Shown one piece after another: positions 1 to 59,126 of a stretch of 64,000 bases of DNA. Every line of letters starts with the position of its first letter. The stretch's first letter is position 1. The DNA lies in the IMG/VR virus record IMGVR_UViG_3300036801_000470, positions 1 through 64,000 of that record. The stretch is one strand, 5' to 3'. The notes beneath the pieces were generated by a model. The model did no database searches and was not told the DNA's origin. It was given only the letters and a program-made list of their open reading frames with translations. The translations under genes and the position numbers were made by a program. Origin of the DNA: a virus.

Positions 1-309
1 GTGGCCGACCCGGCGGAGATTCAGATCCCGCGCGACGCGGACGACGCGACCCGGAACGTGCAGATCGCGCGGGGGCTCGCGCGCTGGCTCGTCGCCCAGC
101 GGCCTGGTGCATCGGTCTTTCCGATCGAGTCGCTCGCCATCGCCGTCGCCCTGCCGGAGCCGACGCTCGCGTGGCTGCGCGGCCAGGGGCGGAGCAACGT
201 GGAGATCGCGCACGCGCTCTGTCTGCCGCCCGAACTCGTTCGTTTCCGCTCGATTTCGCTGCGCCAGGCGATACCGCAGTCGTCCCGCGAACTCCCCGTC
301 TCGGCCTGA
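1..309 (+). CDS. ImmA/IrrE-like protein, C-terminal part or degenerate copy
   Basis: A 102-residue reading frame begins with GTG at the window edge, so it may continue upstream. Its second half resembles the C-terminus of ImmA/IrrE metallopeptidases: a helix ending in VALPEPTLAWL, then a small helix-turn-helix-like segment (VEIAHALCLPPELVRFR). Members of that family cleave XRE-type repressors to induce phages and mobile elements. The helix that normally carries HExxH reads IARGLARWLVA here, so both zinc-binding histidines and the glutamate are missing if the alignment is right. It is either a catalytically dead relative or a chance resemblance. It lies just upstream of two operator-like palindromes, which suits a lysogeny-control role. 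The family call is by eye and uncertain. Confidence 0.4.
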   Translation: MADPAEIQIPRDADDATRNVQIARGLARWLVAQRPGASVFPIESLAIAVALPEPTLAWLRGQGRSNVEIAHALCLPPELVRFRSISLRQAIPQSSRELPVSA

Positions 310-359
310 TCGAACGCCTCGGAAGGCCTCGCCTCGTGGCCTTCACGCGCGAGGGGCTT

Positions 360-375
360 GACCAGGATGCTGGTC
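360..375. promoter_or_regulatory. Operator-like palindrome, copy 1 (GACCAGGATGCTGGTC)
   Basis: A 16-bp near-perfect palindrome with arms GACCAG and CTGGTC and a 4-bp centre. It is the first of five copies in the window. Copy 2 starts 30 bp further on, close to three helical turns, as expected for cooperative binding of a dimeric repressor. It lies in the 140-bp gap upstream of the gene at 452. Confidence 0.65.
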
Positions 376-389
376 GCTCGTAGGGTGGT

Positions 390-405
390 GACCAGAATCA
401 TGGTC
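390..405. promoter_or_regulatory. Operator-like palindrome, copy 2 (GACCAGAATCATGGTC)
   Basis: Second copy of the 16-bp palindrome. Here the outer symmetry extends by two bases on each side (GTGACCA...TGGTCAC, 388-407), while the inner arm has one mismatch to the consensus. It ends 46 bp before the start codon at 452 and would cover a promoter for that gene. Confidence 0.62.
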
Positions 406-451
406 ACCGCGGACGCGCGTTGTCGCGCCGCGAAGCGCGGAGGCGAGCGTG

Positions 452-754
452 ATGGGGGTTGTGCGTTCAATTCGTGAGTGCGGTACGGCTTCGGCGATGA
501 CGCCGCCCCTGCGGCTTCTTCTCGAGCGAAGCTGGCAGTCGGCGCGGATGCAGGTGCAGCGGCACACGGTGCCGCTCAACGTCGCGGCGGCCGCCGGGCA
601 GCTCTTGACGCTGTTCAAGGACGCGCAGCTCGCGCTCGATCACGTGGAAGGCGCGGACGATTGGGCCGTTCAGGTGCGGTCCTACCTGCGCCACGTCATT
701 CGCGAGGAGCTCATCGAGTCGTCGCGCCGAGCGCGCGAGGCGACCGAGGCTTGA
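452..754 (+). CDS. Hypothetical early protein, operator-controlled
   Basis: A 100-residue protein of unknown function, mostly helical and with no recognised domain. The ATG at 452 is chosen because GGAGG lies 8 bases upstream (439-443); a GTG at 449 and an internal ATG at 497 are alternatives. It is the first gene behind the paired operator-like palindromes at 360-405, so it is probably expressed under the phage repressor circuit. No cysteine clusters, membrane segment or clear helix-turn-helix are visible. Confidence 0.6.
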   Translation: MGVVRSIRECGTASAMTPPLRLLLERSWQSARMQVQRHTVPLNVAAAAGQLLTLFKDAQLALDHVEGADDWAVQVRSYLRHVIREELIESSRRAREATEA

Positions 755-809
755 TCCAGCGCAAGCAACATCCGCTGCGCCCCGACCGAAGAAAGTGAGC
801 CGGTCGCAC

Positions 810-836
810 TTGCGCGCCGTAATAACCGCGCGCATG
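810..836 (+). promoter_or_regulatory. Early-gene head element, copy 1
   Basis: A 27-bp element TTGCGCGCCGTAATAACC followed by GCGCGCATG. Arms TGCGCGC (811-817) and GCGCGCA (828-834) are inverted around a 10-bp spacer that contains TAATAA, a good -10 hexamer, 8 bases before the ATG at 834. That ATG opens an 18-codon frame whose stop (888-890) overlaps the start of the 881 gene. Two more copies lie at 2229 and 4649. It could be a promoter with a near-leaderless start, an operator over a -10 box, or both. Confidence 0.6.
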
Positions 837-880
837 TTTGACTGGAGCGCGACGTCTCGCGCGTCGAAAGGATCACGGAC

Positions 881-2101
881 ATGGCCATGACGCATAGCAA
901 CGCCTCCCAGATGACGCATAGGTCGCCGCAGGACATGACGGGTGCCTACGGCGAGCCGCGTGCGCTGACGCAGATGCTCGAATTTGCTGCGGCCAACTAC
1001 AATCTCGTGTCCCCGACGACGGCCTGCGCGTCGCTCCCGGATGGGTGCGAGGTCGTGCTGTCGAGCGTGCTCATCGACGCGAAGAACGAGACCTACGACG
1101 TCATGGGTGGCAAGAAGGGGCTCGGCAAGAACGCCCTCGACCGAATCGCGGCCGCGGCAGGAATCTCGTGGCTCCCGGACCAATCGCGCCGGCTCGATGA
1201 CGGGTCGGACCCTCGGTACGTGCTCTACAAGGCCATCGGCGTGCTCCGCAGCTTCGATGGGACCGAGCAGATGCTGATCGGGACCAAGGAGATGGACCTC
1301 CGCGACGGAGCTCCTCAGTGCGAGGCGATCGTCGCGAACGCGAGGGAAGGCAAAGACCCCTCGATTCAGATCCGGGAAATGCGTCTGCACATCCTGGCGC
1401 ACGCCGAGAGCAAGGCCCGTCTTCGCGCCATCCGCTCGATCGGCATTCGCAGCTCGTACGCCGCGCAGGACCTGGCCAAACCCTTCGTCATCGCGCGACT
1501 CATGCTCACGGGGGCGACCGCCGATCCAGAGCTCCGGCGCGCGATCGCGATGGAGCGCACCAAGGCGATGCTCGGTCCGCGCGCGCTCTACGGCGCCGCG
1601 CCACTGCCTGCCCAGGGTGTCGCGCTCGATGCCCCCAGGCCCCCACCCCCCGTCGGCGCGCGACCGGCCGACGACGACGAGGGCATCGGGCTTGGAGACC
1701 CCCTGGCCCCCCCTGTCGGGTCGGCACCGCAGCCTCCTGCCCAGTCTCGCCCCCCCGGGCCCCCCGACGGCTTTCCTGCGCGAAACCCGCCCCCCCCTCC
1801 GGGCGGCGCGCAGGCCCCCCAGCAGCCCCCCCCGTCCCCCGCCGCCGGTCCGCAGCAGACCACGTTGCCGGGGACGGGGGGAACGCCGGCGAGCGGGTTC
1901 ACGATTCCCTTCGGCCGGACGCGGGGGACGCCGATCGAGCAGGCCACCGACCGGGACCTCGAGTTCGTCGAGCGCTCGGTCCGCGAAAACCTCGAGGGCG
2001 GCCAGTCGCGCTTTCCGGATCGGGACCGTCGCCTTTTGGACGCGATCCTGAACGAGATGGACCGGCGCGTCGTCAACGACGACCATAAGATCCGGTACTG
2101 A
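881..2101 (+). CDS. Recombination-type phage protein (possible ssDNA-annealing protein) with ExoX-like C-terminus
   Basis: A 406-residue protein. Residues 1-235 form a conserved-looking domain with the stretches GGKKGLGKNALDRIAAAAG and ARLRAIRSIGIRSSY, a pattern I associate with phage proteins that sit beside recombination nucleases. A Pro/Gly/Ala-rich linker follows at about 240-340. The C-terminus (about 345-400) starts TIPFGRTRGTPIEQATD, resembling the small domain at the end of ExoX-like exonucleases. It lies upstream of an SbcD/SbcC pair, so a role as annealing or recombination partner is likely but inferred. The start ATG at 881 follows GAAAGGA at distance; the ATG at 887 is an alternative. 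A 27-bp control element lies 45 bp upstream. Confidence 0.6.
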   Translation: MAMTHSNASQMTHRSPQDMTGAYGEPRALTQMLEFAAANYNLVSPTTACASLPDGCEVVLSSVLIDAKNETYDVMGGKKGLGKNALDRIAAAAGISWLPDQSRRLDDGSDPRYVLYKAIGVLRSFDGTEQMLIGTKEMDLRDGAPQCEAIVANAREGKDPSIQIREMRLHILAHAESKARLRAIRSIGIRSSYAAQDLAKPFVIARLMLTGATADPELRRAIAMERTKAMLGPRALYGAAPLPAQGVALDAPRPPPPVGARPADDDEGIGLGDPLAPPVGSAPQPPAQSRPPGPPDGFPARNPPPPPGGAQAPQQPPPSPAAGPQQTTLPGTGGTPASGFTIPFGRTRGTPIEQATDRDLEFVERSVRENLEGGQSRFPDRDRRLLDAILNEMDRRVVNDDHKIRY

Positions 2102-2106
2102 GCGTC

Positions 2107-2241
2107 ATGTCGCGCCTATCGGACAACGCGCGGCGTCGCCGTCGCCTTCGGGCGCACCGGCGGCGCCATGCGCGCCGGGTCGAGCGCATCGCGGAAGTCG
2201 TTTGGGCGCTCTTTCTCGCTTCCGCCACTTGCGCGCCGTAA
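2107..2241 (+). CDS. Small arginine-rich protein (44 aa), tentative
   Basis: A short frame five bases after the previous stop. It encodes a very basic peptide (runs of five and three arginines in the first 24 residues) ending in a hydrophobic segment (VVWALFLASATCAP). Its stop codon TAA is the first half of the TAATAA box in the second early-gene head element. No ribosome-binding site is evident. It may be a real microprotein or a chance frame in GC-rich DNA. Confidence 0.3.
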   Translation: MSRLSDNARRRRRLRAHRRRHARRVERIAEVVWALFLASATCAP

Positions 2242-2255
2242 TAACAGCGCGCATG
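2229..2255 (+). promoter_or_regulatory. Early-gene head element, copy 2
   Basis: Identical to copy 1 except for one base (TTGCGCGCCGTAATAACA then GCGCGCATG). The palindromic arms TGCGCGC/GCGCGCA and the TAATAA box 8 bases before the ATG are kept. Here the ATG (2253) is in frame with, and may start, the following gene. Confidence 0.6.
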
Positions 2256-2492
2256 ATTCAGAGCATGAAGACGCCCGCACCCTCCCCCTTCCCGCCCGGT
2301 CAGGGCTATGGACCGCGCATCGACGCGGTCATCTACCACGCCGAGGCCACGCGAGACTTCACGCGGGAGGAATGGCTCCTGCTCGCGGCGGCTGCGCTCG
2401 ACCAGGGCGTGAAGGGGGAGGACGGGATTTTCGGAAGGCGCGCCATCGAGGCCGTGCACGAGCTTTGTCTGCCGGTCGAGGACGTAGGTTGA
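2253..2492 (+). CDS. Hypothetical early protein
   Basis: A 79-residue protein of unknown function. The middle has an acidic helical stretch (TREEWLLLAAAALDQGVKG). The ATG at 2253 is the last codon of the head element; an in-frame ATG at 2265 gives 75 residues. Neither has a Shine-Dalgarno sequence, so if the TAATAA box 8 bases upstream is the -10 hexamer, the mRNA would be leaderless. The stop overlaps the next start (TGATG), indicating translational coupling. Confidence 0.6.
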   Translation: MIQSMKTPAPSPFPPGQGYGPRIDAVIYHAEATRDFTREEWLLLAAAALDQGVKGEDGIFGRRAIEAVHELCLPVEDVG

Positions 2493-2782
2493 TGGCCGCC
2501 GCTCTTTCGCTCGCTCCGATCGTGAAAGCGTGCCGATGCGGGCGCGCGTATTCGGCCGAGACGTGGTCGGCGCTGAAGTACGTCGGGACGTCGCGCTACC
2601 CGTGGGGCGAGGTGCAAGAGCTCCGCGACTGCCCATGCGGAAGCACGATCGCGCGCGTGCTCGAGGAGGGGCTGCCGGAGTCGGGCCCGTGCCCGCACTG
2701 CGGCCGCGAACTCGGGGATATCGAGGATCGGGATCTCGCGCCGCACGTGATGGGCGCCTGTCGGGAATTGGGAAGGAAGTGA
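2492..2782 (+). CDS. Small zinc-binding protein
   Basis: A 96-residue protein with three cysteine pairs: CRC at the N-terminus, CPC near residue 49, and CPHC with a trailing cysteine near the end (HVMGACRELGRK). This layout suggests one or two structural zinc sites, as in many small phage DNA- or RNA-contacting proteins. The start ATG overlaps the preceding stop. The partner is unknown. Confidence 0.65.
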   Translation: MAAALSLAPIVKACRCGRAYSAETWSALKYVGTSRYPWGEVQELRDCPCGSTIARVLEEGLPESGPCPHCGRELGDIEDRDLAPHVMGACRELGRK

Positions 2783-2785
2783 ATC

Positions 2786-2995
2786 GTGCCGTCGCGCAAA
2801 AGAACCAGGCCCGAGGAGATCAGTCGTTCGGATCGGCTCGCGCGTTTGCGACGGACCTTCCGCTCTGCGGAAGCCAACCTCGCGAAGCTGCGCGAGAGCG
2901 TGCCGGTGGGCATCGGCACCGAGCTCGTCGAGGAGATGCGCCGGATCGCCGCGGCGCTCGTGGAGGTCACGGTCGTCATCGAGGAGAAGTCGTGA
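2786..2995 (+). CDS. Hypothetical protein, helical
   Basis: A 69-residue basic protein starting at GTG 2786, four bases after the previous stop. It is predicted to be almost all helix, with heptad-like leucines (LARLRRTFRSAEANLAKLRE). The stop overlaps the next gene by four bases (GTGA). The function is unknown; the size and charge would fit a nucleic-acid or coiled-coil adaptor. Confidence 0.6.
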   Translation: MPSRKRTRPEEISRSDRLARLRRTFRSAEANLAKLRESVPVGIGTELVEEMRRIAAALVEVTVVIEEKS

Positions 2996-3222
2996 AGGTG
3001 TCGCTCTCCGACTTGAGCGTCACGCAGCGCCGCGTGCTGCGCATTCTACTCAACGCCGACGGCGATTGGGTCGGGCTCACGTACGGGGAGAGTGGCGCTG
3101 CGGTGCGCCTGGTGGAGATGCAGCTCGCGGAGCGACGCGGGATCGACAAGCACGCGGCGGCGTGGCGCATCGCCGAGGCGGGGCGCGCGCTCTATTCCGC
3201 GGAAGGAGTCTCGACGTCATGA
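2992..3222 (+). CDS. Small winged-helix-like protein
   Basis: A 76-residue protein beginning at GTG within the previous stop. The N-terminal half (LSVTQRRVLRILLNADGDWV) looks like the first helices of a winged-helix domain, which would make it a small DNA-binding protein. The resemblance is weak. The stop overlaps the start of the SbcD-like gene, so the two are probably co-translated. Confidence 0.55.
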   Translation: MKVSLSDLSVTQRRVLRILLNADGDWVGLTYGESGAAVRLVEMQLAERRGIDKHAAAWRIAEAGRALYSAEGVSTS

Positions 3223-4397
3223 AGTCCTTCTCGCTTCTCGGCTCCGCCGATCACCACTGGAAGCGTCTCGGGTCCCGCTTCGCGGAGTGCCAGCGCATCC
3301 ACGCCTGGACGGTGGAGCAGACCCGGCTCCGCGCACCCGACGTCTTCGTCTCGGCCGGGGACCTCTACGAGGAGAACTCGACGCCGGCGGACCGTGAGGC
3401 GACGGCGGACTGGGTCACCGCCATCACCGAGACGTGCCCCTTCGTCATCGCAAAGGGGAACCACGATCGAGATCTGGACCTCGCCTACCTGCGTCGGCTC
3501 CGCACGAAGTTCCCGGTGCACGTCGTCGAGAGCTGCGGCATCGTGCACATCGGCCCCGCGGCGATCGCGGTCGTCGCCTGGCCGAACCGCTCGAGCCTCG
3601 CCGCGATGCTCCCCGGCGCGAACGCCGAGCAGCTCGACGACGCCACCGGGGACGCCCTCCGGAACGTCCTCTCGATGCTTGGCGCCGAGCTCGCGGCGCA
3701 CGACGGCCCCCGGGTCCTCGTCGGGCACTTCCAGATCGACGGCGCCGTCACCTCCGTAGGGCAGCCGCTCATCGGGGGCGGGATGCGCCTCGGGCTCGCC
3801 GACCTCGCCCTTGCGCGCGCGGACATCGCGCTCTGCGGCCACATTCATCGTCCACAAGCGTGGACGCACGGCGGGACCGAGATCGTGATGTGCGGGTCGC
3901 CCTTCCGCACGGCGTTCGGGGAGGTGGAGGAGAAGAGCATCGTCAGCGCGCGCTGGGAGCACTGGGACGGCGAGGTCACCGAGCCGGGGGGGTGCCGATG
4001 GGCACTCGAGGGCTGGGACCGCCTCCCCACCCCCTCGACGCCGATGCTTCTCCTCTCGGGGCGCTGGGAGGGGGACGGCCGGGGGCTCGTGCTCGACGAC
4101 GAGACGGCCGCGTGCGTCGCGGGGGCCGAAGTCCGCTTCCGCTACCAGGTGGCCAGCGACCAGCAGGCGATCGCGCGCGCGGAAGCCGCGAAGCTCCGCG
4201 AGGCGTGGCTCGTCGCCGGCGCCGTGCGGGTCGAGGTGGAGAAGGAGGTCGTGCCGGTCGTGCGCGCGCGCGCGCCGGAGGTGTCGCGCGTGGCCACCCT
4301 CCCCGAGCAGCTCGACATCCATTGGGCGTCGCGCGGCATCACGCTCGACCCGACGCGCCGCGCGCGCCTTCACCAGAAGCTCGGGGAGCTCGGTTGA
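3219..4397 (+). CDS. sbcD-like: SbcD-like DNA exonuclease subunit (metallophosphoesterase)
   Basis: A 392-residue protein with the calcineurin-like phosphoesterase motifs of SbcD/Mre11: D11-x-H13, GD (47-48) in SAGDLYEE, GNHD (80-83), VGH (168-170) and CGHIH (206-210). With the SbcC-like ATPase encoded next, it should form a double-strand-break processing nuclease, like gp47/gp46 of T4. ATG 3219 is preceded by GGAAGGAG at 3201-3208. The C-terminal 130 residues are basic, as expected for the capping and SbcC-binding region. Length is normal for the family. All active-site residues that can be placed are present. Confidence 0.85.
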   Translation: MKSFSLLGSADHHWKRLGSRFAECQRIHAWTVEQTRLRAPDVFVSAGDLYEENSTPADREATADWVTAITETCPFVIAKGNHDRDLDLAYLRRLRTKFPVHVVESCGIVHIGPAAIAVVAWPNRSSLAAMLPGANAEQLDDATGDALRNVLSMLGAELAAHDGPRVLVGHFQIDGAVTSVGQPLIGGGMRLGLADLALARADIALCGHIHRPQAWTHGGTEIVMCGSPFRTAFGEVEEKSIVSARWEHWDGEVTEPGGCRWALEGWDRLPTPSTPMLLLSGRWEGDGRGLVLDDETAACVAGAEVRFRYQVASDQQAIARAEAAKLREAWLVAGAVRVEVEKEVVPVVRARAPEVSRVATLPEQLDIHWASRGITLDPTRRARLHQKLGELG

Positions 4398-4418
4398 CCA
4401 AGGAGATGGGGGTGGGCC

Positions 4419-4646
4419 ATGTCGATGGCAGCGCGGCGGAAAGCCGAGGAGGAGGTCGCCCGCTCGCTCGCGGATAGCCCCTGGGAGCGGGGGCTACGCG
4501 CTGCGAAGGCGGGAGAGTCGGGCGAGCGCCCGAAGCTCGTGATGTGCGCGTGCTGCAAGAGCCGACCGGCGGAGCCGGGCAGCGCCTTCTGCGGAGAGTT
4601 TTGCGCGATCGACGCGGAGATTCGAGAGGCGTTTCGTGACCGATAG
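4419..4646 (+). CDS. Small zinc-finger protein between the SbcD and SbcC genes
   Basis: A 75-residue protein with CACCKSR and CGEFC near the C-terminus, a likely single zinc site of the CxxC-x12-CxxxC type. The N-terminal half is helical and charged. AAGGAG lies 13-18 bases before the ATG. It sits between the two nuclease subunits and may modulate them or simply be an inserted early gene; function unknown. Confidence 0.6.
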   Translation: MSMAARRKAEEEVARSLADSPWERGLRAAKAGESGERPKLVMCACCKSRPAEPGSAFCGEFCAIDAEIREAFRDR

Positions 4647-4648
4647 AG

Positions 4649-4674
4649 TTGCGCGCCGTACTAACGTGCGCATG
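4649..4674 (+). promoter_or_regulatory. Early-gene head element, copy 3
   Basis: A slightly diverged, one-base-shorter copy (TTGCGCGCCGTACTAAC then GTGCGCATG). The outer palindrome is reduced to TGCGC...GCGCA and the box is TACTAA, 7 bases before an ATG. That ATG opens an 8-codon frame ending four bases before the start codon of the SbcC-like gene, so it may act as a coupled leader. Confidence 0.5.
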
Positions 4675-4702
4675 GTGTTTGGACACCGGAGACCGTGACC
4701 TG

Positions 4703-7204
4703 ATGCGATTCGGACGCTTCTACGCCAAAGGCTTGGGCATCTTCGCCGAGCCCTTCGAAGTGAATCTGGACGACGTCCCCGGGCCGCTCGTGGCGGTGAC
4801 GGGCCCAAACGGCTGCGGGAAGAGCACTTTCCTCGAGCTGCTCGGCGCCGCCAGCGTCTACCGCGACACGCCGACGCACGGCTCGCTCGGCGCGCACGCG
4901 CGCTCGCGCGGGGCGGTGCTCGAGGTCGACGTCATCAACGGTGCTCGCTACCGCATCCGGCACACAGTAGACGGCCCGGGCAAGGGCGAGACGCTGGTGA
5001 CCGACGTGAACGGCGTCCCGCAGCTCCCCGACACGAAGGTGTCGAGCTTCGACGCTTGGGCGAAGAAGCACTTCCCGCCGAAGGAGGTCACGTACGCCAG
5101 CCTCCTGGCCGCCCAGGAGTCGGATGGCCTTCTCGACATGGACCCGGGGCCGGCCAAGGGGGTCCTTCTCCGCGTGCTCGGCTGCGAAGAGCTCGAGACG
5201 AAGGCAAAGCGGGCGAGCGAGCGCGCGCGGGAGGCGAAGGCGGCCTGGCAGCTCGCCGGGGCGCGGCTGAAGGACGAGAAGGCGCGTCCCGAGGCGGTGC
5301 CGGTGGAAGAGGCGGAGTCGAAGCTGGCGCGGGCGCGCGAGGTCGTCGTCTACGCCGAGGGGGTCGCGAGCCAGGCGGAGGAGGACCTCGGGAAGGCGCG
5401 CGCCGCGGACGAGGCCCACCGTGCGAGCGTGCGGGAGCACGACGACGCCGTGTCGCGGCGAGCCGTCGGGCAAGCGGCGCTGGAGGCCGAGCAGAAGAAG
5501 CTCGAGGAGCTTCGCGTCCGCATCACGAACAACGAGGCGGTGCTCGCCGAGGAGGCGGTCATCCGCGCCGCCGCGGCGCGCGCGCAAGAGATCGGGGCTC
5601 GCATTCCGGAGCTCCGGACGAAGATCGAGGCCGCGCGGGGAGAGAAGAGGGCGGCGGAGGAAGCGCGGGCGCGCGCGGGGACGACCTCACGAGGGGCGCA
5701 GGATCGGAGGGATGCGGCGCGCGGGCGCGCGGAGACGGCCGACGGTCGCGCGGACGCGCGCGCACAAGAGGCCTCGAAGGCGGAGGCTGAAGTCGGCCCC
5801 CTCAAGGCGGAGATCGAAGCCGTCGATCGCGCGCTCGCCGAGGCGTCTGCGGAGGTGGAGCGGCTGCAGGGCGTGGCGCTCGTGGGGGCGGAGGGGCGGA
5901 TCGAGTCCCTTCGCACTTCCCTCGCCGAGATCTGCGCGATCGGCGCCGAGGACAATCCGTACGCCACCGCCGTCCACGACGCGGAGAAGCGATTCCTTGA
6001 CGCCCAGGATCGCGCCGCGAGCGCCCTGGCGGCTGACGACACCGCGGTGGCTGCCGCGCGCGACACCCCCGCCCTCCTCCGCGCCGCCAAGGCGAAGGAG
6101 ACCCGCGCTCGTTCGCTCCTCACCGAGCTCCGCACGCGCCTCAGCACGACCGCGGCGCGCGCGGCGTGGGCAACGGAGGTGCCGGCGATCCGCGAGGACG
6201 CGGCCGCGGCCCGGCGCGAGGTCGAGGCGGCGGAGCGCGAGGACCTGGCCGCACGGGAGGACTGGGCGCGCGCCAACGCGCTGCTCGAAGGCTTCGGGCC
6301 GAAACTCGCGAGCCTGCAGGCGGAGATCCAAGCCCTCAGCGACGAGAACGTCGCCCTCGCCGACACCCTGAAGAAGCTTCGGCCCCTCGAGGCCGCCCAG
6401 GGTCGACTGGAGGAGCTCCGGCACGCGAGCGCGCAGGCCCGCGAGGCGCTCGCGCAGCGGGAGGCGGAGCTGGCCGCGATCGAGATCCCGCCGGTCGTCG
6501 GATCGGAGGCGCCGGCGCGCCTTCAGCAGGCCGCCGCGACGCACACCCAAGCCGTGCAGCTGCTCGAGCGGGCGCGCGCCGAGGTGACCCGCCTCGCGCC
6601 GACGGTGACGGCCGCGCACGAGAGCGCGGCACGATGCACCGCGCTCGAGGAGGAGGTGCGGCGCGCGGGCGAGGACCTGGGGGACTGGACGCTCCTGGCC
6701 GAGTCGCTCGGGCGGGACGGGCTCCAGGCGCTGCTCATCGACGCGGCCGGGCCCGAGCTCACGGCGATCGTGAACGACCTCCTGCACAACTGCCACGGGC
6801 CGCGGTTCACGATGACGCTCGCGACGTCGCGCCTGTCGGGCGACGGGAAGAAGGAACTCGACGGGCTCGAGATCTCGGTGCTCGACACGCGCGAGGGGCG
6901 CGAGGCGTCGGGGAAGCTCTTCAGCGGGGGGGAGAAGACCTTCCTCCGGGAGGCGCTGTCTCTGGCCATCGTGATCCGGGCGTGCCGGGCGTCGGGAGCT
7001 CCCACCCTCATCCGAGATGAGTCGGGCTCGGCGCTCGATCCGGAGTACGGGCGGGCGTACATCGCCATGCTGCGGCGCGCGGCGGAGCACGTCGGGGCCA
7101 GCCGAGTGTTGTTTGTGTCCCACAACCCCGCTCTCGTAGAGCTCGCGGACGGGGTGATCGATCTGGGGGCGCGGGCGGCGAAGCTTGAGGGGTTCGTCTC
7201 GTGA
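4703..7204 (+). CDS. sbcC-like: SbcC-like ATPase subunit of the recombination nuclease
   Basis: An 833-residue SMC-like ATPase. It has Walker A GPNGCGKS (34-41), a long Ala/Glu/Arg-rich coiled coil (about 160-660), the ABC signature LFSGGEK (739-745), a Walker B-type LIRDES (769-774) and the switch histidine in FVSHN (about 807). It pairs with the SbcD-like phosphoesterase encoded upstream. It is shorter than cellular SbcC (about 1,050), and no CxxC zinc hook is present at the coiled-coil apex; a lone cysteine occurs in EICAIGAEDNPY. The start at 4703 gives the usual MRFGRFYAKG N-terminus; a head element lies directly upstream. Confidence 0.85.
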   Translation: MRFGRFYAKGLGIFAEPFEVNLDDVPGPLVAVTGPNGCGKSTFLELLGAASVYRDTPTHGSLGAHARSRGAVLEVDVINGARYRIRHTVDGPGKGETLVTDVNGVPQLPDTKVSSFDAWAKKHFPPKEVTYASLLAAQESDGLLDMDPGPAKGVLLRVLGCEELETKAKRASERAREAKAAWQLAGARLKDEKARPEAVPVEEAESKLARAREVVVYAEGVASQAEEDLGKARAADEAHRASVREHDDAVSRRAVGQAALEAEQKKLEELRVRITNNEAVLAEEAVIRAAAARAQEIGARIPELRTKIEAARGEKRAAEEARARAGTTSRGAQDRRDAARGRAETADGRADARAQEASKAEAEVGPLKAEIEAVDRALAEASAEVERLQGVALVGAEGRIESLRTSLAEICAIGAEDNPYATAVHDAEKRFLDAQDRAASALAADDTAVAAARDTPALLRAAKAKETRARSLLTELRTRLSTTAARAAWATEVPAIREDAAAARREVEAAEREDLAAREDWARANALLEGFGPKLASLQAEIQALSDENVALADTLKKLRPLEAAQGRLEELRHASAQAREALAQREAELAAIEIPPVVGSEAPARLQQAAATHTQAVQLLERARAEVTRLAPTVTAAHESAARCTALEEEVRRAGEDLGDWTLLAESLGRDGLQALLIDAAGPELTAIVNDLLHNCHGPRFTMTLATSRLSGDGKKELDGLEISVLDTREGREASGKLFSGGEKTFLREALSLAIVIRACRASGAPTLIRDESGSALDPEYGRAYIAMLRRAAEHVGASRVLFVSHNPALVELADGVIDLGARAAKLEGFVS

Positions 7205-7536: not shown

Positions 7537-7964
7537 TGACCTCTCACGCCCTAGCCTACCTAACCGCCGACATCATCGTCATCGGCGGCGCCGATGGGAT
7601 CTCTGACCACGTCCTTCTCATCAAGCGCGGGAAGGAGCCGTTCGTGGGCCGGTATGCCCTCCCCGGCGGGCATCTGCACGAAGGCGAGGCGCCGGAGCAG
7701 GCCGCGCGGCGCGAACTCCTTGAGGAGACGGGTCTCGACCTCTCGATCGTTCCCTTCGAGTTCGTCGGCGCCTGGGGCGACCCTCGGCGAGACCCGCGCG
7801 GTCGGTACGTGTCCTTCGTCTTCAGCGCGCGCGTGTACGGGCTTCCTGCCGTGAAGGCCGCTGACGACGCTTCTACGGCAGAGTGGATCTCGGCGATTGG
7901 AGGCTTCGGCATCCCATTCGCCTTCGATCATCGGGACATCCTGCGCGAGGCGCTGCGGACATGA
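7536..7964 (+). CDS. NUDIX hydrolase
   Basis: A 142-residue single-domain NUDIX protein with a complete Nudix box (G45-x5-E51-x7-RELLEETGL, residues 45-67), including the metal-binding REUxEE. The domain starts AYLTADIIVIGG, as in nucleotide-diphosphate hydrolases of the MutT/ADP-ribose class. GGGGAGG precedes the start. Substrates in phages of this kind are modified dNTPs, NAD-related compounds or mRNA caps; the sequence does not say which. It lies between the nuclease and nucleic-acid modification genes. Confidence 0.88.
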   Translation: MTSHALAYLTADIIVIGGADGISDHVLLIKRGKEPFVGRYALPGGHLHEGEAPEQAARRELLEETGLDLSIVPFEFVGAWGDPRRDPRGRYVSFVFSARVYGLPAVKAADDASTAEWISAIGGFGIPFAFDHRDILREALRT

Positions 7965-11117: not shown

Positions 11118-11486
11118 ATGCTCGAGATGACCTCCAAGACCCGCTACCGCCTGCGCCGCATCGACCGCGCACCCGACGACCGGACGAAGTCCTACGCAAG
11201 CCGCGAGGAGGCGGAGACCGCTCGGGATCGCGTGCTCTCGGCCAAAGAGGCGGCATCCTGGGAGATCGTGCCGCAGACGAGCGGACCCTCGGGAGCGCGC
11301 GACGAGGCCGCGCGCTCGAAGGTGCCGCGCACGTTCACCCTGGCACCAGAGGTCTGGGAGACCGTGGGCCGCCTGGCGCTCTCGCTCGGCCTCACCAAGA
11401 CGCGCGTGGTCGAAAACGCCGTCCGTCTCTACGACGAGAAGGTCGGCACCGAAGCCTCCCCGCGCCGCGCGCGCCCGAAGAAGTAA
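11118..11486 (+). CDS. Ribbon-helix-helix-like DNA-binding protein
   Basis: A 122-residue basic protein. Residues 69-105 (VPRTFTLAPEVWETVGRLAL, then LGLTKTRVVENAVRLY) have the strand-helix-helix pattern of ribbon-helix-helix repressors, which bind palindromes as dimers of dimers. The N-terminal 50 residues contain a TKSYASREEAETARDRV stretch of the kind that modifies arginine-rich tips. Two operator-like palindromes lie 50-145 bp downstream, before the next gene, making this protein one candidate for their ligand. ATG 11127 is an alternative start. Confidence 0.6.
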   Translation: MLEMTSKTRYRLRRIDRAPDDRTKSYASREEAETARDRVLSAKEAASWEIVPQTSGPSGARDEAARSKVPRTFTLAPEVWETVGRLALSLGLTKTRVVENAVRLYDEKVGTEASPRRARPKK

Positions 11487-11538: not shown

Positions 11539-11554
11539 GACCAGTATTCTGGTC
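11539..11554. promoter_or_regulatory. Operator-like palindrome, copy 3 (GACCAGTATTCTGGTC)
   Basis: Third copy of the 16-bp palindrome, with both six-base arms perfect. Its centre contains TATTCT, a plausible -10-like hexamer, so a bound repressor could block RNA polymerase. It lies 77 bp before copy 4 in the gene-free stretch 11487-11655. Confidence 0.65.
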
Positions 11555-11615: not shown

Positions 11616-11631
11616 GACCAGCATTCTGGTC
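11616..11631. promoter_or_regulatory. Operator-like palindrome, copy 4 (GACCAGCATTCTGGTC)
   Basis: Fourth copy, identical to copy 5 at 50685. It ends 24 bp before the start of a 17-codon leader frame and 85 bp before the zinc-ribbon gene, placing it at the promoter of the rightward early genes from 11656 on. Confidence 0.65.
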
Positions 11632-12475: not shown

Positions 12476-13267
12476 ATGCTCACTCCCCTCTGCCAGCGCT
12501 GGCGGGCGCGACGCGCCTCCTATCGTCCCGCGCGGGAGCCGATTGACACCAGGCGGTTCGAGGTCGCTCCCATCGAGCGCGATGTTGCGCGCGGCTATGT
12601 CATAGCCAATCACTACGCGGCGTCATACCCGGCGGGGCGCCTGAACTTCGGTCTATTCCAGGGTTCCGCGCTCGTCGGTGTCGCGGTCTTCTCCCATCCG
12701 GTGAACGAGGCCACGCTGAAGGCGCTCCCCGGGGAGGGTCTCGAACGCATCGAGCTCGGTCGCTTCGTCCTCGACAACGAGGTCGGTGGGAACGGGGAGT
12801 CCTGGTTCCTGGCGCGCTGCTTCGAGCAACTTCGCTCCGAAGGGATCGTCTCGGTCATCTCCTTTTCCGACCCGGAGGCTCGATGCACGGCGGCCGGCGA
12901 GCCGGTGTTCGCCGGGCACATCGGTGGCATCTACCAAGCGAGTAACGCTGTCTACGCGGGGCGTGCTCGCCCCGATACGCAGCGACTCCTACCCGATGGC
13001 ACGGTGCTTCACTCGCGAGCGATCGCCAAGCTTCGGAAGCGTGAACGCGGGTGGACGACGGCCGCTCGTCTGCTCGAGAGCTACGGCGCTGAGCCTCTCC
13101 GTGTCGCCGAGGACGCGGCGGCTTGGGCCGAGCGCTGGGTGCCGCGTCTGACCCGCAAGCGGCGCCACGACGGGAACCACAAGTACCTCTTCGGGCTCAC
13201 GCGCGCCGCCAAGCGCGCGCTTCCCGAGAGCCTCCCTTACCCGAAGCTCGCCGCGAGGCTCGCGTGA
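12476..13267 (+). CDS. Mom-like DNA modification protein (GNAT fold)
   Basis: A 263-residue protein that resembles the Mom family, whose phage Mu member converts adenine to an acylated form and protects DNA from restriction. Supporting stretches are IANHYAASYPAGRLNFGLF (about 43-61), the effector-entry segment IELGRFVLDN (92-101), ISFSDP (128-133) and GHIGGIYQASNAVYAGR (148-164); the last two are the most characteristic. The C-terminus (RHDGNHKYLFGL) also matches relatives I know. A C5-methyltransferase is encoded 1 kb downstream. The modified base cannot be told from sequence. Confidence 0.65.
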   Translation: MLTPLCQRWRARRASYRPAREPIDTRRFEVAPIERDVARGYVIANHYAASYPAGRLNFGLFQGSALVGVAVFSHPVNEATLKALPGEGLERIELGRFVLDNEVGGNGESWFLARCFEQLRSEGIVSVISFSDPEARCTAAGEPVFAGHIGGIYQASNAVYAGRARPDTQRLLPDGTVLHSRAIAKLRKRERGWTTAARLLESYGAEPLRVAEDAAAWAERWVPRLTRKRRHDGNHKYLFGLTRAAKRALPESLPYPKLAARLA

Positions 13268-13970: not shown

Positions 13971-14311
13971 GCGTCGTTCCCAGTCTGGGTCGCTGCATGC
14001 GCCCGATTCACTGCCGACCGAGCGCGCCGAAGTGCGACCACTGCCGGAGGGTGGTCGCCGACGCGAAGAAGCGCGCGGAAGCGATTGTCGCGACGGTGCG
14101 CGCGGAGATCGATGCGGCGGTGGAGGATCTCGACTCGGCACGCGGCCAATCGTCTCCGCAAGAGGTGGTCGCGCAGGTGATCGCGGCCGCGCGCGAGGTG
14201 GATGCGGCGCAAGGCCGGAGCGGGAATCCATACGTCCGCGCCAGGCATCGCCTCCACCAGGCGATCGAGCAACTCGACAACATGGAACGGGAGATGGGGC
14301 TTAGGAAATGA
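13967..14311 (+). CDS. Small cysteine-containing helical protein
   Basis: A 114-residue protein starting ATG 13967 inside the previous stop. Four early cysteines (C10, C16 and a CDHC pair near 23-26) could bind zinc. The rest is a long helix with a coiled-coil look. It ends inside the start of the methyltransferase gene (ATGA), so the two are coupled. It might be a partner of the methyltransferase, but this is only inferred from position. Confidence 0.55.
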   Translation: MSVVPSLGRCMRPIHCRPSAPKCDHCRRVVADAKKRAEAIVATVRAEIDAAVEDLDSARGQSSPQEVVAQVIAAAREVDAAQGRSGNPYVRARHRLHQAIEQLDNMEREMGLRK

Positions 14312-15843
14312 GACCGCCCTCGGTACGACTCTTTGCAGACGAGATCGTCGTCGACAACTTCGCCGGCGGCGGAGGGGCGTCGACGGGGATCGAGCGGGCG
14401 ACCGATCGCTCCCCGGACCTCGCGATCAACCACAACGAGAACGCCCTCTCGATGCACCAGCGCAATCACCCGCGCACGCGCCATCTTCACGGCGACGTGT
14501 GGGACGTGGACCCGGTCGCCGTCTGCGCGGGGCGCCCGGTGGGCCTCGCGTGGTTCTCCCCCGATTGCACCGACTTCTCCCGCGCGAAGGGAAAGCGCCC
14601 CCGATCCCCGCGCGTTCGGGCGCTCGCCTGGGTCGTCATCCGCTGGGCCCGGACGGTGCGGCCCCGGGTCATCTTCATGGAGAACGTCGGGGAGTTTGCC
14701 GACTGGGGCCCCCTCGACGCGGAGGGTGAGCCCGACCCCGCGAAGCGCGGGCGGACGTTCAAGCATTGGCTCGGCAAGCTCCGCGGCGCTGGCTACCAGG
14801 TCGAATACCGGGAGCTCCGCGCCTGCGACTACGGCGCGCCCACCATCCGGAAGCGGCTCTTCCTGATCGCTCGCTGCGATGCTCGCCCCATCGTCTGGCC
14901 GATCCCGACGCATGGGTTTGGCGGCCAGCCGCACCGGGCGGCGGCCGAGTGCATCGAGTGGGCCCTTCCCTGCCCCAGCATCTTCGGCCGGAAGAAAGCC
15001 CTCGCCGAGAACACCCTCCGCCGCATCGCGCGCGGCGTGCAGCGCTTCGTCCTCGAGTCCGGGCAGCCGTTCCTCATCCCGACCACGCACCAGGGCGACA
15101 GCCGCGTCCACTCGATCGCGGAGCCGCTGCGCACCGTCACGGGCGCGAATCGCGGGGAGCTCGCGCTCGTCGCCCCAAGCCTCATCCAGACTGGCTACGG
15201 CGAGCGCCGGGGACAGGCCCCGCGGACGCTCGACATCCTCACGCCCCTGGGCACGGTCGTTGGTGGCGGCCAGAAGCACGGGCTCGTGTCGGCGTTCCTG
15301 GCGAAGCACTATGGCCACCCCGACCGGAAGTCCGGAGGCGGCGCCGTCATCGGCAGCGAGCTGCGGAGCCCGATCGGGACCGTGACGTCGACCGACCACC
15401 ATTCGCTCGTCACGAGCCACATGGTGAAACTGCGCGGTACGTGCCCCGACGGCCAGCGGATGGACGCGCCGGCGCCGACGATCACCGCGGGCGGGACGCA
15501 CCTCGGCGAGGTCCGGTCGTTCCTCACGCGCTTCAACGGCACCGGGGGCCCTGAACCCGTCCAGCTGCCGCTCGGCTCGGTGACGAGCAAGCCGCGCTTC
15601 GGGCTCGTGCGCGTGAGCGGGGAGGACTACGCGATCGCCGACATCGGGTTCCGAATGCTCCAGCCGCGCGAGTTGTACCGGGCGCAGTCGTTCGCCGACA
15701 GCTACGAGATCGAGCGCGGGCACGATGGGCGCGTGTTCACGAAGGAGACGCAGATCTTCCTCTGCGGGAACAGCGTTCCCCCGGTGATGGCCGAAGCGCT
15801 TGTGCGGGCGAACCTCGCGAGCCGGGAAGAGGTGGCTGCTTGA
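14308..15843 (+). CDS. DNA (cytosine-5) methyltransferase
   Basis: A 511-residue class I methyltransferase of the C5-cytosine type. Motif I is VVDNFAGGGGASTGIE (14-29). Motif IV carries the catalytic cysteine 87 in SPDCTDFS, replacing the usual PPCQ; the same variant occurs in other phage enzymes. Motif VI is MENVG (124-128), VIII is RKRLFLIAR (181-189) and the C-terminal motifs are MLQPRELYRAQSF and GNSVPPVMAEAL. The region 270-440 is a long target-recognition domain with repeated TxG...TITAGG-like stretches. No partner endonuclease is adjacent, so it probably protects phage DNA. Confidence 0.92.
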   Translation: MRPPSVRLFADEIVVDNFAGGGGASTGIERATDRSPDLAINHNENALSMHQRNHPRTRHLHGDVWDVDPVAVCAGRPVGLAWFSPDCTDFSRAKGKRPRSPRVRALAWVVIRWARTVRPRVIFMENVGEFADWGPLDAEGEPDPAKRGRTFKHWLGKLRGAGYQVEYRELRACDYGAPTIRKRLFLIARCDARPIVWPIPTHGFGGQPHRAAAECIEWALPCPSIFGRKKALAENTLRRIARGVQRFVLESGQPFLIPTTHQGDSRVHSIAEPLRTVTGANRGELALVAPSLIQTGYGERRGQAPRTLDILTPLGTVVGGGQKHGLVSAFLAKHYGHPDRKSGGGAVIGSELRSPIGTVTSTDHHSLVTSHMVKLRGTCPDGQRMDAPAPTITAGGTHLGEVRSFLTRFNGTGGPEPVQLPLGSVTSKPRFGLVRVSGEDYAIADIGFRMLQPRELYRAQSFADSYEIERGHDGRVFTKETQIFLCGNSVPPVMAEALVRANLASREEVAA

Positions 15844-47847: not shown

Positions 47848-48660
47848 TCAGTCGAGCGAGGGCTCGGGGAGCTCCTCGACGTCTATGTCCGGGGGCTCAT
47901 CGAGGCCGCCCGCGTTCGCGCTGTCGCTCTCGCTCGAGTCGCCGGTCGACCTCCCGGAGCCGTCGTGCGGCGTACCAGAGGAGGATGTGGCCATCCGTGA
48001 GTTGCGTAGGTGAAAGACCAAACGCAAGATCAGGTCGATCAACGCACCCGAGGAGAGTGAACCTAAAGGGTCGGTGCGCGCCCCCGCGGCGAGCTTCTCG
48101 ATCCAGAGATCGCACTCCTCGTTGGTGAGGTAGGCGAGGATCGGTCCGCACTCGATCTGGACCCGAAGGTACAGATTCATCAGCACGCCGACCTCGTCGG
48201 CGAGCATGTTGTGTCGCATCCATTGCGGGGACGGAAAGGCGTTGTCGTCGAGCTTCGACGTTGGCTTCCGGCACGTGCGGTAGAGCAGCTCGACGGTCGC
48301 CGCGTTCTTGTAGACGTTCGCGTAGCCGAGCGTGGTCGCGTCCACCGACTTGCTCGGGTCCTTCTTGTTTCGAAGGACCTCCTGCGTGTACAGCTCCGCG
48401 GCCGCCTGCGCGAGGATCTGCTCCTGCTGTGTTGCGGGGACGATCGCGATCTCGCCGATCGACGTGTCGGTCCCGGGCATCTTGCGCGGGTAGTCGACCT
48501 TCTTCGAGGGGCGCGGCACCTGCTCGAGCATCGCCACGAGCTCCCCAGGGGAGATGTGCTCGGGGGGCCCATGCGCCATCGCGCGCGGCGCCTGTCCGTC
48601 CGCGTGCTGCTCTTGCGCCGGCTTGCCGTGCGACGCCGATTGCTTCTTTTGGATCGTCAC
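47848..48660 (-). CDS. Tail assembly chaperone, zero-frame product
   Basis: A 270-residue protein between tail tube and tape measure genes, the fixed place of the gpG/gpGT-type chaperone. A helical core (TQQEQILAQAAAELYTQEVL; ATVELLYRTCRKP) is followed by DLWIEKLAAGARTDP and, after residue about 215, a disordered acidic Ser/Gly/Asp tail. The core should bind the tape measure during assembly. A slippery heptamer at 48064-48070 allows a second product. ATG 48660 is used, 12 bases after the tube gene. Confidence 0.7.
   Translation of the reverse strand: MTIQKKQSASHGKPAQEQHADGQAPRAMAHGPPEHISPGELVAMLEQVPRPSKKVDYPRKMPGTDTSIGEIAIVPATQQEQILAQAAAELYTQEVLRNKKDPSKSVDATTLGYANVYKNAATVELLYRTCRKPTSKLDDNAFPSPQWMRHNMLADEVGVLMNLYLRVQIECGPILAYLTNEECDLWIEKLAAGARTDPLGSLSSGALIDLILRLVFHLRNSRMATSSSGTPHDGSGRSTGDSSESDSANAGGLDEPPDIDVEELPEPSLD
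47897..48660 (-). CDS. Tail assembly chaperone, -1 frameshift product
   Basis: Shares residues 1-199 with the zero-frame product. A -1 shift on CCCTTTA then adds 55 residues from AGG onward: RFTLLGCVDRPDLAFGLSPT, then QLTDGHILLWYAARRLREVD and a charged end, stopping at 47897. The added part has the tryptophan-tyrosine helix typical of the second half of phage tail chaperones, which recruits the tube protein. Total about 254 residues. It is unusual in being slightly shorter than the unshifted form. Confidence 0.7.
48064..48070 (-). other. -1 ribosomal slippery heptamer CCCTTTA
   Basis: In the zero frame the codons are GAC CCT TTA GGT, so the heptamer fits X XXY YYZ exactly (X=C, Y=T, Z=A). 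After slippage both tRNAs re-pair on CCC TTT. It lies between the core and tail of the chaperone gene, where programmed shifts occur in many tailed phages. Confidence 0.7.
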
Positions 48661-50684: not shown

Positions 50685-50700
50685 GACCAGCATTCTGGTC
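50685..50700. promoter_or_regulatory. Operator-like palindrome, copy 5 (GACCAGCATTCTGGTC)
   Basis: Identical to copy 4, though 39 kb away. It begins one base from the ATG of the HNH gene (50683) and 26 bases from the sheath stop, the only gap in this stretch. Binding here would block initiation at, or translation from, a local promoter. Confidence 0.65.
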
Positions 50701-58685: not shown

Positions 58686-59126
58686 TTAGTAGCCGGTCGC
58701 CTGGCCCATCACGAAGATGGCCGCGGCGGCGTCCCATCCCGTGGCGGTCGCCGTGATCGCCGAGCCGCCCGTGATGGCGTTGAAGAGCACGATCGAGCCG
58801 ATGTTGCCGGTCGAGACCGCGGCGCTCTGCACGTAGAGCTCGGGGCCGTTCGTGGCGGCCGCCTGGCGACCCGGGGGACCGGCGAAGACGCCGTAGAGCG
58901 TCACGGTCTTGCCGTCGCGCCGACGGTTCTGGATCAGCTGGGCGAGGGTCAGCGTCGTTGCGATGCCCGCGTCGAAGCCGCCGCCTCCGATCTGAATGGT
59001 GTCGGAGCCGCCGGTGTAGACGACGCCGAGGAGGTCGAACGTGACCACCGCGAGAAACTCGAGGGCGGAGCCGCGGGGCTCGTAGAGGAAGTTGATGCCC
59101 TTCACGTTGGCATTGCGAGTCGCCAT
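58686..59126 (-). CDS. Capsid-region structural protein
   Basis: A 146-residue protein with GGAG upstream of ATG 59126. Beta-rich: GSALEFLAVVTFDLLGVVYT, DTIQIGGGGFDAG, then IGSIVLFNAITGGSAITATA. Typical of head decoration proteins, but no family is recognised. Confidence 0.62.
   Translation of the reverse strand: MATRNANVKGINFLYEPRGSALEFLAVVTFDLLGVVYTGGSDTIQIGGGGFDAGIATTLTLAQLIQNRRRDGKTVTLYGVFAGPPGRQAAATNGPELYVQSAAVSTGNIGSIVLFNAITGGSAITATATGWDAAAAIFVMGQATGY

Follow-up and report, generated by a model that had tools for sequence, protein, structure and literature searches.

Phage and bacterial promoters are known in which an operator lies between the -35 and -10 hexamers, and this class includes promoters of phages that are controlled by repressors. 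In MerR-type promoters a dyad is contained in a spacer of 19 to 20 bp, and the MS2 coat-protein operator combines a bulge, two base pairs, an ANYA loop and an AUG. The operators of T4/RB69 gp43 carry a UAAC loop sequence (PMC3014915), and leaderless promoters of Deinococcus-Thermus have a -10 motif of the form TANNNT ∼6 to 7 bp before the open reading frame (ORF) (PMC12340547). The element compared with these systems here is a dyad of 26 to 27 bp that ends in ATG and is found in a stretch of viral DNA (the window) comprising 64,000 of the 65,612 bases of IMG/VR record IMGVR_UViG_3300036801_000470. The virus is an uncultivated, GC-rich myovirus (∼69% GC) with early genes on the + strand and structural genes (tail sheath and major head protein) on the - strand. 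As in promoters with an operator between the two hexamers, the dyad overlaps a proposed promoter core with a 16- to 17-bp spacer, and as in repressor-controlled phage promoters, several copies with one presumed regulator stand at the heads of separate transcription units. Unlike typical repressor-controlled promoters, the element has weak hexamers, a 24-bp GC-rich dyad with an AT core and a sequence found only in this phage. The sequence is new, and the element is most likely a promoter with a built-in repressor site, which is a known kind.

The element, with the consensus TTGCGCGCCGTAnTAAC(n)GYGCGCATG, is a real, phage-specific dyad in three copies, all of which are intergenic, on the + strand and directly upstream of genes of the recombination module. 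They head a block that consists of a gene at 881-2101, a group that contains the SbcD gene, and the SbcC gene.

810..836, + strand: element copy 1, TTGCGCGCCGTAATAACCGCGCGCATG; dyad at 811-834
881..2101, + strand: gene 1, behind copy 1; protein of family phrog_13782; Shine-Dalgarno sequence AAAGGA
2229..2255, + strand: element copy 2, TTGCGCGCCGTAATAACAGCGCGCATG; dyad at 2230-2253
2253..2492, + strand: gene 2, behind copy 2, with its start at 2253 or 2265; function unknown; Shine-Dalgarno sequence at neither start
3219..4397, + strand: SbcD-like metallophosphoesterase, downstream within the block headed by copy 2
4649..4674, + strand: element copy 3 (26 nt), TTGCGCGCCGTACTAACGTGCGCATG; dyad at 4650-4672, one base shorter
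4703..7204, + strand: gene 3, behind copy 3; SbcC-like ATPase; Shine-Dalgarno sequence GGAG

The full 27-mer was matched exactly by copies 1 and 2, which differ only at the N, whereas the number of matches expected in shuffled sequence was 0. With their flanks, these two copies are identical at 31 of 33 bases (CACTTGCGCGCCGTAATAACnGCGCGCATGnTT). Copy 3 differs by a central A-to-C change, loss of the N and a C-to-T change in the right arm. A search of the whole 65,612-bp record revealed no fourth copy, and the description given in an earlier, sequence-only reading, of near-identical copies at 810 and 2229 and a diverged one at 4649, was borne out. So were the inverted arms TGCGCGC/GCGCGCA and the terminal ATG: the dyad follows the pattern TGCGCGC-n-GTnATnAC-n-GCGCGCA, with 20 of 24 positions symmetric in copy 1, 20 of 24 in copy 2 and 16 of 23 in copy 3. 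All three dyads lie wholly outside ORFs, compared with 5.3% of the 24-mers in 1-7204, by an ORF set of our own that omits a doubtful 44-amino-acid frame (2107-2241) ending inside copy 2. All three also end in ATG, compared with 6.6% of A's that begin an ATG.

The frames opened by these ATGs are as previously described, namely 18 codons running to 890 over the start of gene 1, gene 2 itself, and 8 codons running to 4698, four bases before the ATG at 4703. There was no Shine-Dalgarno complementarity at the element ATGs (+1.2 to +1.7 kcal/mol), and Shine-Dalgarno sites were present at 881 (-5.7 kcal/mol) and 4703 (-6.6 kcal/mol). Because 834 and 4672 lack such a site, the 18- and 8-codon frames are probably untranslated, unless a transcript begins exactly there, and are probably not genes. 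Of the early genes examined, the one at 2253/2265 alone lacked a Shine-Dalgarno sequence, which agrees with an mRNA that begins at the ATG. Thus, the proposal that the element gives rise to near-leaderless transcripts is plausible for copy 2 but not for genes 1 and 3, which have Shine-Dalgarno sites of their own.

The intergenic location, the common orientation, the position at the heads of three genes and the dyad symmetry all fit the class of promoters with an operator, and it seems probable that the element represents a set of regulated promoters in one form or another. The form that we prefer, which we would place just short of an even chance, has TTGCGC as the -35 hexamer, CATGnT as the -10 hexamer and the dyad in the spacer as the operator. 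The proposed hexamers, which were scored with a weight matrix, are as follows.

810..815 (copy 1), 2229-2234 (copy 2) and 4649-4654 (copy 3), + strand: proposed -35 hexamer, TTGCGC
833..838, + strand: proposed -10 hexamer of copy 1, CATGTT, with a 17-bp spacer
2252..2257, + strand: proposed -10 hexamer of copy 2, CATGAT, with a 17-bp spacer and a predicted start near 2264-2265
4671..4676, + strand: proposed -10 hexamer of copy 3, CATGGT, with a 16-bp spacer and a weak score

The three copies would then serve as co-regulated internal promoters of the early recombination block. Host-type sigma-70 RNA polymerase would bind TTGCGC at the left edge of the element and CATGnT at the right edge, across spacers of 17, 17 and 16 bp, with predicted transcription starts at ∼845, 2264-2265 and 4683. 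The TGCGCGC/GCGCGCA dyad, which occupies the spacer, would be the target of a dimeric DNA-binding protein of phage or host origin that blocks the polymerase, and the AT-rich center GTAnTAAC would be the core of the operator and not a -10 box. From copy 2, the gene at 2265 would be transcribed with no leader or almost none; the transcripts of genes 1 and 3 would carry Shine-Dalgarno sites in leaders of ∼36 and ∼20 nt, respectively.

With a generic, E. coli-like matrix, which may not suit the host of this phage, the TTGCGC/CATGnT pairs scored 3.2, 5.0 and 1.2 in copies 1, 2 and 3, compared with -1.0, 0.0 and 3.0 when TAnTAA was taken as the -10 box, so that the CATGnT pairing is ahead in copies 1 and 2 and behind in copy 3. 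In favor of the CATGnT pairing, the general arrangement TTGnnn-N16/17-nAnnnT is found in only ∼1.8% of 40-nt stretches. The dyad overlaps the proposed promoter core in every copy, and the spacer of copy 3, shortened to 16 bp by the loss of one base, is of a length that sigma-70 promoters tolerate. The dissimilarity of the -35 regions noted earlier holds only if TAATAA is the -10 box, as TTGCGC is identical in all copies. On that pairing no phage sigma factor is required, and the suggested need for a phage factor falls away. Of the idea of a promoter with an overlapping operator, the class fits best of those considered, but TAATAA as its -10 box has weak support, since it departs from TANNNT, the best -35 partners differ and the scores are low in copies 1 and 2.

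Several points weigh against pairing TTGCGC with CATGnT. The hexamers are weak, with 3 of 6 consensus matches at -35 and 3 to 4 of 6 at -10, and none of the three copies reaches a threshold of 9 of 12. Scores such as 3.2 and 1.2 often arise by chance, on one strand at rates of ∼0.08 and ∼0.34 per 40 nt, respectively, compared with 0.014 per 40 nt for a score of 5.0. Copy 3 scored higher not only with TAnTAA but also with an upstream TAGAGT hexamer (4.1), and its 1-bp-shorter dyad is awkward for a dimeric repressor. As the three copies are one motif, the promoter match amounts to about one independent observation. No regulator for the element dyad was identified. The closest relative found with the same gene set, G005 (L052; IMGVR_UViG_3300010371_000039), whose head, annealing and SbcC proteins match those of this phage at 69%, 35% and 40%, has no copy of the element; a single dyad of unrelated sequence lies ahead of its annealing-protein gene.

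47992-48008, record coordinates of G005: 17-bp perfect dyad CGCAACTGGCAGTTGCG, ∼36 nt upstream of the annealing-protein gene and overlapping the end of the preceding ORF; single in that record at such symmetry

Because the preference for CATGnT was formed post hoc with a generic matrix that may not suit the host, it has the standing of a hypothesis and not of a result.

The strongest competitor, which we nevertheless consider unlikely, is that the element functions at the mRNA level, as a hairpin recognized by a phage RNA-binding protein or RNase, which would control translation or processing of the recombination genes. Each copy can be folded as RNA into a 7-bp stem (UGCGCGC/GYGCGCA), a one-base mismatch or bulge, GU/AC pairs and an AnUA tetraloop, with AUG at the end of every copy. 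The folding energy was -14 kcal/mol (z, -3.2) for the 27-nt copies 1 and 2 and -11.2 kcal/mol for copy 3, and all 27 pair cells across the copies are standard. The changes in copy 3 fall at one base of the loop, at the unpaired N and at a C that becomes a U in a G.U pair; the probability that a deletion and two substitutions would be structure neutral by chance was 0.03 to 0.045, although this figure is based on three changes in a single copy, and there was no two-sided compensatory change among the 27 paired cells. In context, copy 3 favored another register (stem probability, 0.01 to 0.12), and the loop of copies 1 and 2 is partly dyad symmetric, as expected of a DNA site. The hairpin resembles that of T4/RB69 gp43 in lying near start codons and in having UAAC in its apical region (PMC3014915). 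There was no match in Rfam, and among the genes scanned there was no family match to operator-binding proteins of the MS2/gp43 type. As in the MS2 operator, a bulge lies two pairs below a four-base AnUA loop, but here the bulge is a C, the phage is a double-stranded DNA (dsDNA) myovirus, and genes 1 and 3 have Shine-Dalgarno-led starts that follow the hairpin at distances of 47 and 31 nt. A Shine-Dalgarno sequence is absent ahead of the hairpin AUG itself, and copy 2 is the only one that adjoins the start of its gene; copies 1 and 3 are far from the ribosome-binding sites of genes 1 and 3. The further conjecture, drawn by analogy, that a dsDNA myovirus might share one RNA hairpin as a translational operator to coordinate its recombination genes, convergent on MS2/gp43 logic and possibly with the annealing protein of gene 1 as autogenous repressor, is improbable. 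If the RNA operator were real, such a repeated translational operator would be a rarity among dsDNA phages.

Slightly less probable than the RNA operator is the arrangement first put forward for this locus, with TAnTAA as the -10 box, a transcription start at the first base of the terminal ATG, and an operator or activator site that is formed by the dyad and overlaps the box. TAATAA was found nowhere else in the window on either strand, and TACTAA occurred one further time, at 58686, as the stop codon of the predicted gene ending at 58686; these hexamers are thus essentially confined to the elements. They stand at a nearly constant 8, 8 and 7 bases from the ATG in copies 1, 2 and 3, and copy 3 scores above its CATGnT alternative. 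An AT-rich hexamer 7 to 8 bp before an ATG without a Shine-Dalgarno sequence is reminiscent of the Deinococcus-Thermus leaderless promoters (PMC12340547). However, the last position is A in all copies instead of the T of TANNNT, so that form of -10 or leaderless promoter is not what is seen here. Furthermore, the -35 partners are not shared, copies 1 and 2 score low, and in two of the three copies the frame opened by the ATG is very short and not that of the gene.

It is also doubtful, to a greater degree, that the element is a DNA site with no tie to promoters, such as a regulator- or nucleoid-binding site, a site of recombination or replication, or a short mobile palindrome that has spread within the phage. 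Recent copying could account for the strong symmetry and for the high identity of the first two copies across 33 bp, but the shared orientation, the location at the heads of genes and the ATG kept in every copy point to gene expression. No further copies came to light in the rest of the phage, in the ATG-anchored scan of IMG/VR or, chance matches aside, in GTDB, which indicates that the element is not a known widespread repeat. Hairpin promoters of the N4 type were rejected because a very large virion polymerase is missing (no predicted frame is longer than 909 amino acids), a MerR-type promoter does not agree with spacers of 17, 17 and 16 bp, and a likeness to Xer/dif and rolling-circle nick sites was dropped because the geometry is unlike, no search having been made for their enzymes.

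Exact, relaxed and ATG-anchored DNA scans of IMG/VR yielded no true copies, and 12 matches in a DNA scan of GTDB genomes were judged to be chance. The single IMG/VR match and the 12 GTDB matches were scattered over unrelated organisms, and most lacked the hairpin fold of the element. One match, in L028, does fold into the hairpin but is coding by our reading of the frame, and all 14 matches of a further DNA scan lacked the AT-rich core. An RNA covariance search of the window and relatives gave no further copies; other low E-values were given only by copies 1 and 2 read on the reverse strand and by a weak match in L023 that lacks the ATG. In that related contig, the sequence downstream of the SbcD match contains an 11-bp hairpin closed by a 4-base loop (7760-7788; ATGAAACTC), whose 3' arm carries GGAGG immediately ahead of an ATG. 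Relatives of the annealing protein were found in 3 contigs by protein search, those of SbcC in G001, G004 and G005, and those of the major head protein in 8 contigs, some of which lack the recombination genes. As no relative has the element, there is no comparative evidence, and the conclusions rest on three copies in one genome.

A second palindrome, GACCAGnATnnTGGTC, is present in the same phage at five places, compared with ∼1 expected match to the pattern, and at three of these it overlaps a promoter-like pair of hexamers 17 bp apart.

360-375, 390-405, 11539-11554, 11616-11631 and 50685-50700: second palindrome, GACCAGnATnnTGGTC
358-386: promoter-like pair TTGACC-17-TAGGGT, with the -10 flanked by two copies of the second palindrome
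11537: promoter-like pair GTGACC-17-TACGGT, read directly from the sequence
50720, - strand: promoter-like pair TTGCGA-17-CAGAAT

The spacing of the proposed element promoters matches these 17-bp spacers, which supports the CATGnT pairing from within the phage, and the TTGCGA/CAGAAT pair has the same kinds of hexamer as TTGCGC/CATGnT. The second palindrome is probably the main operator of the phage. Directly upstream of two of the GACCAG palindromes, a small ORF (11118-11486) has a weak match to the transcription-regulator family phrog_3887, and the C-terminal half of its product appears ribbon-helix-helix-like by eye. This product is a candidate for the protein that binds the GACCAG palindromes.

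The product of gene 1 can tentatively be considered a candidate RAD52-like single-strand annealing protein, as the top PDB matches of a low-confidence structure model were to RAD52, with a weak fold match. The function of phrog_13782 is unknown; genes of this family lie beside SbcCD genes in G001, G004 and G005 as well. Elsewhere in the window, 12476-13267 encodes a Mom-like protein (PF25680) with a DNA methyltransferase nearby (14308-15843), which are likely DNA modification or anti-restriction genes.

If the three copies are a promoter-operator set, the recombination genes would form a separate regulon beside the GACCAG system of predicted early promoters, and the two palindromes would provide two concrete operators with which the regulators might be found.

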